This document shows, piece after piece, positions 585-53,773 of a stretch of 53,831 nucleotides of DNA; the stretch's first letter is position 1, and each line of letters starts with the position of its first letter. Source of the DNA: an uncultured Parvibacter sp. (lineage in GTDB: Bacteria > Actinomycetota > Coriobacteriia > Coriobacteriales > Eggerthellaceae). Under the pieces are notes generated by a model that saw nothing but the letters and a program-made list of their open reading frames with translations, was not told the DNA's origin and ran no database searches. The translations under genes and the position numbers were made by a program. Where the stretch lies: NCBI GenBank assembly GCA_947649875.1, contig CANSTH010000003.1, positions 1-53,831 of the forward strand, read 5' to 3'.

Positions 585-2318
585 ATGAGAACAAAGGCGA
601 TATCTCTTCTCACCACTGCCGCCCTGATTGTTGGTACTTCAGGTAGCGTGGCAGTGGCTCAGAGTGTGGCCATGGCCGAGAACACCAGTGGAGAGCAGTG
701 GGAGAATCTCTCTTCCGATGAGCGCGAGGCGCTGAATAGGCTTTCCGAGGGCGAGTTCGAGAGCTTCTGCCAGCTAGACGATTCTGCCCAAAAGGCAAAA
801 CTGAAGCAACTCGTAGCCGACATGAACGCCGAAAAGGCCGCGCAGGCCGAGGCCGACAAGAAGGCTACCGAGGACACTGCCTCAAAGGACGTTGAGCAGG
901 TCGAGGACAACACCACCGATAACACCGAAGAGGGCGAAACCCCCGACACCTCTGGAACCGATAAGGGCGAAGAGCCTGAAACTCCCGGCACTGGTGAGGG
1001 CGAAGATCCCGAGAACCCTGGCAGCGGCGAGGAGGGGGAAGACCCCGTTACTCCCGGCACCGGCGAAGGGGAAGACCCGGTAACTCCGCCGACGGAGGAT
1101 CCCGCTGAGCCGGCTGAACCGACTGAGCCGGCCGCCCCGGAGACGCCCGTTGCCCCGAAGCCCGAGGCCCCGGCCACTGATACCGCCAAACCCGAGGTGC
1201 AGCCTGCTCCCGAGCAGCCGAAGGCTGAGGAAAAGGCCGAGAATCCCAACAAGACCACCGAGCCCATTCCCGATAGCGGCACCTATACGCCCAAGCATTA
1301 CTCTCTGAACGCTACCACTGAGATGTTCATCGCCATTATTGGCGAGCAGGCGCGCCAGCTGGCGCAGGACAACGACCTGTATGCCTCCGTGATGATCGCT
1401 CAGGCCATTTTGGAGTCTGGCTCTGGCAATTCCAAGCTGGCCCAAGCCCCCAACTTCAACCTGTTTGGCATCAAGGGCTTTTATGAGGGCGACTCGGTAG
1501 TAATGCGCACCACCGAGTACGATTCTCACGGTGAGCCCTATACGCTGCTGGCCCGTTTCCGCGCCTACGATGGCTACGCTGATTCACTGGCCGACTATGC
1601 CGACTTGCTGGCCAATGGGCTGAATGGCTTCTACTCTGGCGCTTGGAAGTCCAATGCCGAAACTCCGGCGGAGGCTTGCGATTTCCTCGAGGGCCGTTAC
1701 GCAACTTCGCCTACCTACTCCGAGAAGCTGCAAGACTTGATTGCCACCTACGATCTGGAGCGCTTCGACAAGCCGCTGAAATGGGAGTATGTGGATACGT
1801 ATGAGAAGCAGGCGGTGGATCCGGAAACCGGTGAGCTGATGTTCGATGAAGAAAATCAGCCCATCATGGAAGAGTGCACCGTGGCCGACCTGCTGTCGGA
1901 GGTCACCTCCCACCTGGGTACTCCCTATGTGTGGGGCGGCGCCGATCCCATCACTGGTTTCGACTGCTCTGGCCTGATGCAGTACAGCCTGCGCGAGGCC
2001 ATGGGTGTGGAGATTCCCCGCACCACCTACTTCCAGTGGCGCCTGGGCGAAACGGTGCAGTTCGATGAGCTGCAGCCGGGCGACCTGCTGTTCTTCAACC
2101 GCGATGGCGACATTCACCATGTGGCCATGTACCTGGGCGATGGTTACTACATCCATGCGCCTCACACCGGCGATGTGGTACGCGTGACAGCGATGGAAGA
2201 CAATATGCCCTCCTTTGCCCAGCGCGTGCTGCCCACCAAGCCGGTGGCGCTGCAGGTGAAAGCCCCTACTCCCGATGAGCTTCTGGACGAAGCCCGCATG
2301 GCGGCCGGCATCAAGTAG
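585..2318 (+). CDS. Secreted peptidoglycan hydrolase: glucosaminidase plus NlpC/P60
   Basis: A 577-residue exported wall hydrolase. It starts with a Sec signal peptide (basic MRTK, hydrophobic stretch, likely cleavage near AVAQSVAMA, residue 30). A Glu-rich region and a long Pro/Glu/Thr/Gly linker (about 85-235) with repeats of the type GEGEDPxTPGT follow, probably spanning the wall. Residues about 245-395 match the glucosaminidase (FlgJ/LYZ2-like) family, with ILESGSGNS and NLFGIKG motifs; this domain cuts the glycan strand. Residues about 435-555 are an NlpC/P60 endopeptidase domain with the nucleophile Cys461 in GFDCSG and His511/His512 in DIHHVAMY, expected to cut stem peptides. The start is supported by AAGGCAGG upstream. 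It stands alone and ends in a strong terminator. Substrate specificity is inferred from family only. Confidence 0.93.
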   Translation: MRTKAISLLTTAALIVGTSGSVAVAQSVAMAENTSGEQWENLSSDEREALNRLSEGEFESFCQLDDSAQKAKLKQLVADMNAEKAAQAEADKKATEDTASKDVEQVEDNTTDNTEEGETPDTSGTDKGEEPETPGTGEGEDPENPGSGEEGEDPVTPGTGEGEDPVTPPTEDPAEPAEPTEPAAPETPVAPKPEAPATDTAKPEVQPAPEQPKAEEKAENPNKTTEPIPDSGTYTPKHYSLNATTEMFIAIIGEQARQLAQDNDLYASVMIAQAILESGSGNSKLAQAPNFNLFGIKGFYEGDSVVMRTTEYDSHGEPYTLLARFRAYDGYADSLADYADLLANGLNGFYSGAWKSNAETPAEACDFLEGRYATSPTYSEKLQDLIATYDLERFDKPLKWEYVDTYEKQAVDPETGELMFDEENQPIMEECTVADLLSEVTSHLGTPYVWGGADPITGFDCSGLMQYSLREAMGVEIPRTTYFQWRLGETVQFDELQPGDLLFFNRDGDIHHVAMYLGDGYYIHAPHTGDVVRVTAMEDNMPSFAQRVLPTKPVALQVKAPTPDELLDEARMAAGIK

Positions 2319-2343
2319 CTGCGGCGAAACAGAGAATCAGCCA

Positions 2344-2371
2344 GAAAGGGGCCTTCGGGCCCCTTTCTTTT
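2344..2371 (+). terminator. Rho-independent terminator of the wall hydrolase gene
   Basis: A perfect 10-bp stem GAAAGGGGCC / GGCCCCTTTC closes a TTCG tetraloop and is followed by TTTTGT. It separates the hydrolase gene from the symporter gene. Confidence 0.93.
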
Positions 2372-2495
2372 GTGCTTGGTGCTCGACAATATATTCCTGA
2401 AGGCGGATAGGATGGCGCTTTAGCGGGGTAAAGAGGGTCTGTTCTGGTAAAATGCCGCCAATTGGGGCCCCAAAACGGAATAAGGAGGAGGGCTT

Positions 2496-4007
2496 ATGGA
2501 TTTGAACGCGGCTTTAATCAGCTTGACGGGTCAGATCGATGACTTCATGTACACCTACATCTTGGTAATCTTGTTGGTGTTCGTGGGCATCTACTACACC
2601 GTTCGCACCAAGGCGGTGCAAATTCGCTACATCAAGGACATGTTCACTCAGCTTACTGAGAAGAAGCATGTGGAAGGGCAGCGTTCCATTTCTTCCTTCC
2701 AGGCCATGATGGTATCAACCGCCTCCCGCGTTGGCACCGGCAACATCGCCGGTGTGGCCACCGCCATTGCCACCGGAGGCCCGGGTGCCGTGTTCTGGAT
2801 GTGGCTGATGTGCATCATCGGTGCCGCCTCTGCATTCATCGAGTCCACCTTGGCCCAAATCTTCAAGGTGAAATTCAAGGAAGGCGAGTTCCGCGGTGGT
2901 CCCGCTTACTACATTCAGCAGGGTCTGGGGCAGCGTTGGCTGGGTATCGTATTTGCCATAGCCCTTATCCTCTGCTTTGCCTTTGGCTTCAATGGGCTGC
3001 AGACCTTCAACATGACCTCCTCGCTGGAGTATTACATTCCCGACTATGCTACCAACGGCGTAGCGCTGGGCGTGGGCATTGCCGTTTGCGTGTTCGTGGC
3101 CTTCGTTATTTTCGGCGGCGCGAAGCGCATCTCCATCATCACTTCCATCATCGTGCCCATCATGGCTTTCGCCTACATCGCCCTTTCCCTGTGGACGGTG
3201 TTTGCCAACGTAGGCGAGCTGCCGGCCGTGTTCGGCGTGGTGTTCCAGTCGGCCTTCGACTTCCAGTCGGTGGCGGGCGGCTTTGCCGGCTCGGTGGTTA
3301 TGCTGGGCATCAAGCGTGGTCTGTTCTCCAACGAAGCGGGCATGGGCTCGGCGCCTAACGCCGCCGCCACCGCTTCGGTTTCCCATCCGGTGAAGCAGGG
3401 TCTGGTGCAAAGCTTGTCCGTGTACATCGATACGCTGGTCATTTGCACCGCCTCCGCTTTGATGGTGCTCATTTTCTACGTGCAGAACCCCGAGGCCGCC
3501 ACTGCTCTGAACGGCATGGCTCTGGTGCAGATGGCCGTGAACAACTCGGTGGGCGAAGTGGGAATCCATTTCATGACCTTCGCTATCTTCGCGTTTGCGT
3601 TCTCCAGCCTTATCGGCAACTACTTCTACGCCGAGAGCAACTTCCTGTACATCACTAAGAACCGCTACGCTCTGCTGGTGTTCCGCATATTCTGCTTGGC
3701 GTTCATCCTCTACGGTGCGGTGAACAGCTTCGACCTGGCGTGGAACCTGGCCGACATCTTCATGGGCTTCATGGCCATCATCAACCTGGTAGTTATCTTG
3801 CTGCTGGGCAAGTGGGCGCTGGCGGCACTGGACGACTACACGGCGCAGCGCAAAGCCGGCAAAGACCCGGTGTTCCTGGCCTCCTCCATCCCCGGGCTGC
3901 CGGAAGTGCAGTGCTGGAAGCAGGACGAGCTTGAAGACATTGGCCCCAAGCCCATCCAGGAGTACATTGACGAAGCGCTTGATCCGGACTTCTCTCCGTT
4001 GAAGTAG
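2496..4007 (+). CDS. Sodium:alanine/glycine symporter, AGCS family
   Basis: A 503-residue polytopic membrane protein of the AGCS (AlsT/DagA) family, which imports alanine, glycine or related small amino acids with Na+ or H+. The family hallmark is clear near residues 65-100 (SSFQAMMVSTASRVGTGNIAG, then ATGGPGAVFWMW), followed by FRGGPAYYIQQGLG and a GLFSNEAGMGSAPNAAA segment near residue 280. About ten hydrophobic helices are visible and the length is typical of the family. GGAGG lies 9 nt before the ATG. The gene is monocistronic, lying between two terminators. Which amino acid it carries cannot be told from sequence. Confidence 0.93.
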   Translation: MDLNAALISLTGQIDDFMYTYILVILLVFVGIYYTVRTKAVQIRYIKDMFTQLTEKKHVEGQRSISSFQAMMVSTASRVGTGNIAGVATAIATGGPGAVFWMWLMCIIGAASAFIESTLAQIFKVKFKEGEFRGGPAYYIQQGLGQRWLGIVFAIALILCFAFGFNGLQTFNMTSSLEYYIPDYATNGVALGVGIAVCVFVAFVIFGGAKRISIITSIIVPIMAFAYIALSLWTVFANVGELPAVFGVVFQSAFDFQSVAGGFAGSVVMLGIKRGLFSNEAGMGSAPNAAATASVSHPVKQGLVQSLSVYIDTLVICTASALMVLIFYVQNPEAATALNGMALVQMAVNNSVGEVGIHFMTFAIFAFAFSSLIGNYFYAESNFLYITKNRYALLVFRIFCLAFILYGAVNSFDLAWNLADIFMGFMAIINLVVILLLGKWALAALDDYTAQRKAGKDPVFLASSIPGLPEVQCWKQDELEDIGPKPIQEYIDEALDPDFSPLK

Positions 4008-16862: not shown

Positions 16863-17276
16863 GGCCGTATCGAAAGTCCTTGCGAGGTTTCGCCGGTTAA
16901 CTTCGCTAGGATCTTGACAGCATCTCCGCCGAGACTGCAATCGAACAAGTTTCCACCATTGCTTTGATGTGAGTTCTGCCGCCAGACGGCAAAAAGGTCC
17001 CTGATTTGAAAAAATCGAGCTACTTAGCATCGAGAGAGCTTTTCCGAGATCATTTTTGAAGATGACTAAATTGCAATGATTTTCTGAACAGGCATTTTGT
17101 CGGTAGCTGTTCTCACCAACTTCTAAAGGCTTTCAATTGGATGCTAAGTAGCTCGATTTTTTCTAATGAAAGGCTCCAAAACGTTGTTTTTGCGGGCTCC
17201 AATGCTAAGTAGCTCGATTTTTTCGGATGAGAAGATGCCAGTGCCAAGATTGGCGCCAGGCTATAGGGGCTAAGCG
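16863..17276. other. Convergent intergenic region carrying the 217-bp element
   Basis: Between the macrodomain gene and fetB, which converge, there is no reading frame of note. The right half is the 217-bp tripartite repeat listed separately. TGCCG-ccaga-CGGCA at about 16979-16993 is a small hairpin with A residues after it on the plus strand. Confidence 0.6.
17008..17224. repeat. 217-bp tripartite repeat element, copy A
   Basis: Three copies of a 23-bp motif with the core ATCGAGCTACTTAGCAT: 17008-17030 (forward), 17141-17163 and 17202-17224 (both inverted), plus TTTCTGAACAGGCATT at 17081-17096. Gap lengths are 50, 44 and 38 nt. The copy at 53557-53773 has the same four parts, in the opposite orientation, with exactly the same gap lengths. 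Nothing in it looks coding. Confidence 0.92.
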
Positions 17277-37365: not shown

Positions 37366-38280
37366 GTGAAAATTAGAACCCAAAGGCTGATTCAACTGGC
37401 TGCTGCGGCGGTATTGAACGGCTATGCCATGGGATTTGCCGAGGGCAAAATCTTCACCGGCCCCACCAAGAGCGTGTGCGTCCCAGTGCTGAATTGCTAC
37501 TCCTGTCCCGGCGCCCTGGGCGCGTGCCCCATCGGTGCGCTGCAGGCGGCTTTTGGTTCCACCGGCCGCGGATTCCCCTTTTATGTGGTGGGAACGCTAC
37601 TGCTGTTCGGCATCTTACTGGGGCGCCTTTCCTGTGGGCTTCTGTGCCCCTTCGGCTTTATCCAGGATTTGCTGCATCGCATCCCTGTTCCCAAGCTGAA
37701 GGTTCCGGCCAAAATCGACCGCCCGCTGCGCTGGCTGAAGTACGGGGTGCTGGCAATCATGGTGATAGGGCTGCCAGCGATAGTGGCCGCCGCCAACGGC
37801 TACGCTCCACCGTTCTTCTGCGAGTTCTTGTGCCCTGCCGGCACGCTGGAAGCAGGGGTGCCGCTGCTTGCCATGGACGAGCGCTTGCGCAGCCAAATCG
37901 GATGGCTGTTCAACTGGAAGACGGCCATTCTGCTTGCCATCGTGGTCCTGTCCCTGTTCATACATCGGCCATTTTGCCGCTATCTGTGTCCGCTTGGGGG
38001 GCTGTGGGGGCTGTTCAACCGTTTCAGTTTGGTGCAGCTGCAATGGGCCGAGCCCACCTGCGTCCACTGTGGGAAGTGTGCGAAAGCATGCCCGATGGCG
38101 GTAGATCCCGTGAAGGATCAGGCCAGTGCCGAATGCATCCGCTGCACCACCTGCGTTTCCGTGTGCCCCACCAACTCGCTGCACCTGCGCACTCTTCTAA
38201 GGCCGAAAGCCTCTCTTCCCAAAGACGCTGGTGCCACTCTCGAAACCTCAAGCGCCGGGAATCCCGAAGAGCAAGCCTAA
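37366..38280 (+). CDS. Membrane 4Fe-4S polyferredoxin, NapH/NosR/CcdA-partner type
   Basis: A 304-residue protein with about five helices and many cysteines. Membrane-side pairs include CYSCPGALGACPIGAL, CGLLCPFG, CEFLCPAG and CRYLCPLGG. The C-terminal cytoplasmic part has two classical clusters: CVHCGKCAKACP and CIRCTTCVSVCP. It resembles NapH/NosR-type electron-transfer proteins. With the TlpA-like lipoprotein and the CXXC peptide it may carry electrons from ferredoxin to extracytoplasmic thiols. The start is GTG 37366. The stop codon TAA lies inside a copy of the dispersed tripartite-repeat motif, so that repeat defines the C terminus. Confidence 0.9.
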   Translation: MKIRTQRLIQLAAAAVLNGYAMGFAEGKIFTGPTKSVCVPVLNCYSCPGALGACPIGALQAAFGSTGRGFPFYVVGTLLLFGILLGRLSCGLLCPFGFIQDLLHRIPVPKLKVPAKIDRPLRWLKYGVLAIMVIGLPAIVAAANGYAPPFFCEFLCPAGTLEAGVPLLAMDERLRSQIGWLFNWKTAILLAIVVLSLFIHRPFCRYLCPLGGLWGLFNRFSLVQLQWAEPTCVHCGKCAKACPMAVDPVKDQASAECIRCTTCVSVCPTNSLHLRTLLRPKASLPKDAGATLETSSAGNPEEQA

Positions 38281-38325
38281 GTAGCTCGATTTTTTCTGAT
38301 GGAGCGGCCGATCTCGGTTCTGGCA
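38277..38325 (-). repeat. Fragment of the tripartite repeat element
   Basis: CTAAGTAGCTCGATTTTTTC is the inverted motif without its first bases. The next 38 nt resemble the motif-to-motif spacer of the copy at 53557 (CGGCCGATyTCGGTTCT is shared). No second motif or core follows. Confidence 0.85.
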
Positions 38326-38348
38326 ACCACCCGGACGGTACGCTGCCG

Positions 38349-53556: not shown

Positions 53557-53773
53557 GAAAAAATCGAGCTACTTAGCATTTGGTCGCCCGCAAGAACCGA
53601 AATCGGCCGTTTCATCAGAAAAAATCGAGCTACTTAGCATCCCCTCCGCGAGGTGCGGAAGGGGGCTGGAGGCGCGGGCGGCATAATGCCTGTTCAGAAA
53701 TTCGATGCATTCCCATCATCTTAAAGCGGGCCCGCGAAAGCGCCGTTTCGATGCTAAGTAACTCGATTTTTTC
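53557..53773. repeat. 217-bp tripartite repeat element, copy B (inverted)
   Basis: Motifs at 53557-53579 and 53618-53640 (forward) and 53751-53773 (inverted, one mismatch), with the 16-bp core in inverted form at 53685-53700. Gap lengths 38, 44 and 50 nt are the mirror image of copy A. Total length is equal to copy A. Stretches within the 38-nt gap are also similar between the copies (TTGCGGGC in both, read on the same strand). The rest of 53398-53831 shows no gene. Confidence 0.92.

Follow-up and report, generated by a model that had tools for sequence, protein, structure and literature searches.

The 53,831-nucleotide stretch of uncultured Parvibacter DNA analysed here (the window) carries two copies of an element built from three arms and a core (Table 1). 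The arm motif of these elements is GAAAAAATCGAGCTACTTAGCAT, and the arms stand around the core in both orientations. As the original prediction had described, the two copies are inverted relative to each other, and the three motifs, the core and the gaps of 50, 44 and 38 nt are all found in each, the gap lengths being exact. With up to 3 mismatches allowed, GAAAAAATCGAGCTACTTAGCAT has 7 matches in the window compared with 0.17 expected, and 7 or more were obtained in 0 of 100 shuffles, which excludes a chance origin. A decayed half-element is also present. It comprises one arm (38274-38289), mismatched at 2 positions, together with the neighbouring portion of the gap between arms 1 and 2, and it sits where two convergent genes meet.

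Table 1. Positions of the elements in the window and of related features at other loci (L)
Feature	Sequence	Position	Strand	Remark
C3a arm 3	window	17008..17030	+	exact motif; element C3a itself on the - strand
C3a core	window	17081..17096	-	reads AATGCCTGTTCAGAAA on the - strand
C3a arm 2	window	17141..17163	-	exact motif
C3a arm 1	window	17202..17224	-	exact motif; 61 bp from arm 2
C3b arm 1	window	53557..53579	+	exact motif
C3b arm 2	window	53618..53640	+	exact motif; 61 bp from arm 1
C3b core	window	53685..53700	+	AATGCCTGTTCAGAAA
C3b arm 3	window	53751..53773	-	one change, TCGAGTTAC; 126 bp from arm 2
Decayed half-element	window	38252..38343	-	profile match, E 1.9e-9, from sequence only
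Type-2 repeats	L302	2991-3260		array-like; source genome
Type-2 repeats	L347	10090-10310		array-like; source genome
Type-2 repeats	L349	10559-10790		array-like; source genome
Type-2 repeats	L365	9860-10150		array-like; source genome
Type-2 repeats	L376	2379-2650		array-like; source genome
Type-2 repeats	L320	6304-6480		array-like; source genome
Cro/C1-type HTH gene	L101	2010-2231		by sequence
Cro/C1-type HTH gene	L105	1638-1856		by sequence
Cro/C1-type HTH gene	L320	5654-6136		by Pfam

The source genome is a draft, 86% complete and divided into 163 contigs. A whole-genome arm search revealed five elements, on contigs C3 (twice), C8, C14 and C71. The element had been predicted to be present twice, which holds for the window; the genome total is five, plus the decayed half-copy. 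The search returned 17 arm matches with at most one mismatch, all of them within elements, counting the beginning of C71, where the end of C3 is repeated. Measured from start to start, the arms lie exactly 61 and 126 bp apart in all five elements, while the parts outside the arms are ~40-65% identical and the outer flanks are random. A fourth arm, 60 bp beyond the third, is present in the copy on C14, giving the full layout -> -> core <- <-. The C8 copy has its core mirrored about the element axis, at exactly the mirrored position; C8 is therefore the same element without arm 1 and with arm 4. Most arms contain the A-tract AAAA and two contain TTTT (C14 arm 1 and C8 arm 3), a replacement that keeps the A-tract and would disrupt RNA pairing. 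C3b is located near the contig end, and C71 opens with this same third arm, mutation included, suggesting that C71 probably comes after C3. If so, three intact copies and the half-copy lie inside ~41 kb.

All these copies are intergenic. They are found between convergent genes for a macrodomain protein and a FetB-like permease, downstream of ClpB, between divergent genes for a response regulator and TrkH, between rhodanese and surface protein genes, and between MscS and surface protein genes. No shared neighbour gene was seen among the source-genome copies, and the neighbours that can be named are ordinary genes. A short peptide starting from an RTG codon in the core was considered and dropped, frame length and ribosome site being inconsistent by eye.

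The core is also found with other arms in the same genome. In 1.43 Mb of it the core TGCCWGKTCA has 16 occurrences compared with 2 in controls, and a second arm type, GCAAAATCGCGAGATTTGTACG, is present at six or seven loci, its copies being spaced 31, 51, 114/115 or 125 bp apart. These type-2 elements hold the same core between their arms; it has drifted at several loci and is identical to that of the window element at two. Therefore, two arm types can share one core within a genome. The type-2 array of L302 is abutted by a gene of 352 aa (1964-3019) with unusually low third-position GC (0.55) and no Pfam match, a possible candidate for a partner gene.

The exact window motif is absent from two genus-mates, and across 138 genomes of the family it gave only two single matches, at chance level. 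Likewise, a profile built from the sequences of the five copies alone found no second genome at E<=0.001. The weak matches of this profile, however, exposed the core again, now enclosed by other inverted repeats. The core pattern RTGCCTGKTCARRRA has 58 matches in the 138 genomes compared with 5 for the reversed control, and about a dozen of the matches lie between long inverted repeats whose sequence varies from genus to genus. Arms of different genera often have an A-tract plus (T)CG in common and then diverge. For example, the arms of genome G098, TTCAAAAARGGCGCCATTAGCAT, have the A-tract and the TTAGCAT end in common with the window arm and occur as two direct copies, 40 bp apart, ahead of the core. 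Another genome, G085, also carries a second arm type. In GTDB contigs the arm-pair pattern has 0 matches; the core scan there led to Paraeggerthella, the remaining matches being mostly chance. Judged by sequence, the window element is a member of a wider Eggerthellaceae family that has one core and genus-specific arms. We found no earlier description of such repeats in the papers searched on Eggerthellaceae (Eggerthella, Gordonibacter, Paraeggerthella, Slackia).

Several related sequences were seen outside complete elements. In three species of genus g7 (L080, L081 and L125) the core is conserved on its own, without arms; it lies there in T-rich DNA between genes, with a likely CIRCE/groES-type promoter downstream of it, and a similar core lies beside a similar flanking gene start in Aveggerthella (L208). 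Two loci, L091 and L200 (the latter from Eggerthella sinensis), have a conserved intergenic core, TTTTGCATCGTGCCTGGTCA, in different surroundings, possibly another member. Finally, small regulators of the Cro/C1-type HTH class (YozG-like; Table 1) adjoin elements in three genera, which may be due to chance.

Two lineages carry the element in high copy number. In Paraeggerthella hongkongensis (genomes G078 and G079) the arm CAAAACGRACGAGTTTTGC has 74-75 matches per genome versus 0-1 for controls. These form 31-32 arm pairs per genome, 57 of the 63 pairs being exactly 117 bp apart. In the aligned copies the arms, the core and a block TTTATCC...GAGGACCA are conserved and the stretch between them is random, but the length is constant. 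The elements also contain a small hairpin-like block, GGCGRTTTTTCGCC, and their arms start with TGTC followed by a stem starting in A/T (TGTC-AAAAC..GTTTT). One element (L192) lies within a palindrome of ~18 bp (GGCGAATCTCCGAACCT...AGGTTCGGCGATTCGCC), and the core at L171 (1123-1290) is enclosed by arms of a second type, CGCTGGCAGGTTTTGACGGTT, with a lone type-1 arm alongside. In genus g27 (G068 and G070), with the arm AAAAATSACGTTTGTGAACGA, 14/16 pairs are 110 bp apart and 2/16 are 89 bp apart, exactly 21 less; the paired arms carry a conserved mismatch.

The claim that spacing matters is borne out by these relatives, and on firmer ground than the original prediction had available. Spacing is not random in the genome or its relatives but fixed per genus, at 126, 117 or 110 bp, while the spacer sequence drifts. 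Exceptions and internal spacings are often 10 or 21 bp off (117->127, 110->89, 115->125), and tandem arms are 40/41 or 60/61 bp apart. Steps of 10 or 21 bp suggest helical phasing, a pattern drawn from a few exceptional spacings. Comparison of the two P. hongkongensis genomes is also informative. An orthologue at the same locus in G079 exists for 24 of the 32 G078 elements, and no clean empty site was found between the two genomes. Substitutions between orthologues amount to 7.3% in the left arm, 5.2% in the right arm, 9.8% in the core and 8.0% in the TTATCC block, against 18.5% and 24.4% in the variable spacer; the flanks differ by 11.8% (aligned parts only, some of them coding). The variable spacer thus evolves 2-4 times faster than the arms and core, a contrast that may be inflated because the conserved columns were picked from the paralogue consensus. 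Length differs in only 4 of the 24 orthologous pairs, by a single base in each, compared with 66 gaps (summed by hand) in ~4.8 kb of aligned flanks. The depletion of indels and the slower change of the arms indicate that length and arms are being kept, and that the spacing is under selection.

A further feature lies just outside the arms, where the seven adjacent bases show a complementarity of 0.62 compared with 0.46 by chance (0/2000 shuffles). A plain protein-site model does not predict this; it would fit a hairpin, or REP dimers, which can lie inside palindromes (PMC3733652).

We interpret these elements, with moderate confidence, as dispersed, REPIN-like intergenic DNA elements that are kept as putative two-armed protein-binding sites around the core. 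The arms would be sequence-specific sites for a candidate DNA-binding protein, placed as an inverted pair at a fixed distance around the core, and the core would probably be read by a second factor. A dimer or multimer of the arm protein may hold the two arms together in a defined loop. Which sequence this protein binds would shift fast between lineages, so that all arms of one genome would change together. The copies may have spread initially by a transposition-like or REP-like process, and they may persist now because the complex is useful to the cell or to a single-copy partner gene. Since the orientation of neighbouring genes is unbiased, an effect on DNA architecture is more likely than one on local transcription. 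The counterpoint to a host function is that strict spacing in REPINs is explained by mobility. More speculatively, and with the balance against it, the elements could represent an undescribed class of chromosomal architectural element, in which swappable arm modules, read by a fast-diverging lineage-specific protein, are helically phased around a core for a conserved factor, with several types per genome, maintained by selection across Eggerthellaceae.

A less probable but serious alternative is that they are orphan MITEs or true REPINs. The arms would then be transposase ends, with their spacing serving transposition, and the copies would have no cellular role; the mobility, past or present, would come from a transposase acting in trans (RAYT or a DDE enzyme). 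Such an origin agrees with the inverted ends, the dispersed intergenic copies, the short palindromes in the arms and the local near-duplicates. It also agrees with the fixed spacing, 71 and 110 bp, of REPIN doublets (PMC3116915), and with the REP dimers inside palindromes (PMC3733652), which resemble the complementary flanks described above. A 9-protein RAYT/Y1 profile was run over 1.43 Mb of the source genome (65%) and beside the elements retrieved, and it detected no RAYT. The original prediction had allowed for an autonomous transposon with these ends, and none was found among the arm matches, nor any gene-bearing copy ending in these arms. Moreover, the P. hongkongensis copies mostly stay at orthologous sites (24/32), with no clean empty site, and a core conserved independently of the arms would be superfluous for end recognition.

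The elements might instead specify a structured RNA, with the arms paired as a stem and the core forming a conserved loop. This is improbable, although the arms are complementary in every genus despite their differing sequence, and the block GGCGRTTTTTCGCC of P. hongkongensis and the complementary outer flanks are hairpin-like features. Variants of the two arms within an element match at 0.823 when paired and at 0.801 when shuffled (349/2000 shuffles), and with no covariation between them the arms lack the behaviour expected of an RNA stem. In addition, the swaps between AAAA and TTTT are uncompensated, some arms are direct repeats, the arm mismatch in g27 is conserved, the Rfam search of the element gave no match, and there is no bias in the direction of transcription. 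Of the protein-DNA assembly and the folded RNA that had both been proposed, the former is favoured. Finally, a site for recombination or integrase attachment, with the arms as arm-type sites and the core as the crossover, is very improbable: the layout -> -> core <- <- is like that of tyrosine-integrase attP sites, but the mirrored core of C8 is accounted for by the missing arm 1 and the arm 4 present, the spacers have diverged in all copies, no gene-bearing insertion adjoins the elements, no integrase is among the nameable neighbours, and exact-motif and arm searches of IMG/VR viral contigs gave 0 matches.

The family provides many natural replicates in which the spacing is fixed and the arms change. 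It allows one to ask why bacteria retain REP-like doublets for so long, and whether their upkeep is through a host function or through a resident transposase. If the partner protein of the putative binding sites is found, the family would show a DNA-binding protein and every one of its genomic sites evolving rapidly together.

Among known repeat systems, the Correia-type MITEs of Neisseria are ~100-160 bp long, with terminal inverted repeats of ~25 bp and an internal IHF site. The elements described here resemble these and similar bacterial MITEs in size, terminal inverted repeats and a putative internal protein-binding site. However, they keep the interior core from genus to genus and vary in their ends, and they have extra internal arms. 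No target-site duplication was seen by eye in the flanks inspected, and no parental transposon was seen. The CGTC/TGTC-tagged REPs (PMC3733652) are similar in the TGTC start of the P. hongkongensis arms, in head-to-head dimers, possibly inside palindromes, and in having no association with transposase genes. They differ in that the window arms are untagged, there is no CCA tail here, the stems are ~4-6 bp long rather than 8-9, and the spacer here contains a conserved core.

The original prediction knew of no named family with this layout, which was too strong: REPINs are inverted doublets of short palindromic repeats at a fixed spacing of 71 or 110 bp (PMC3116915). The present elements share with the REPIN/RAYT system (Bertels and Rainey 2011, PMC3116915; Nunvar 2010, PMC2817692) two short, partly palindromic inverted repeats at fixed spacing (110, 117 or 126 bp here), an extragenic location, lineage-specific arms, more than one type per genome and long persistence. 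Palindromes that can be read in the arms are GCTA-CT-TAGC, CAAAAC..GTTTTG and CGTT-TGTG-AACG. The arms have no consistent GTAG or CGTC tag, TGTC being found in P. hongkongensis only. REPs prefer convergent and unidirectional intergenic gaps (PMC3733652), a preference not matched by the P. hongkongensis elements, whose gene contexts are unbiased (++13, -+12, --10, +-10); nor do the elements prefer the 3' ends of genes. Since GTAG, RAYT and gene context are unmatched or not shown, and an arm-independent core is added, the element is classified as REPIN-like and not as a REPIN. What distinguishes it from REPINs is a core common to different arm types and genera, together with extra tandem arms at fixed spacing.
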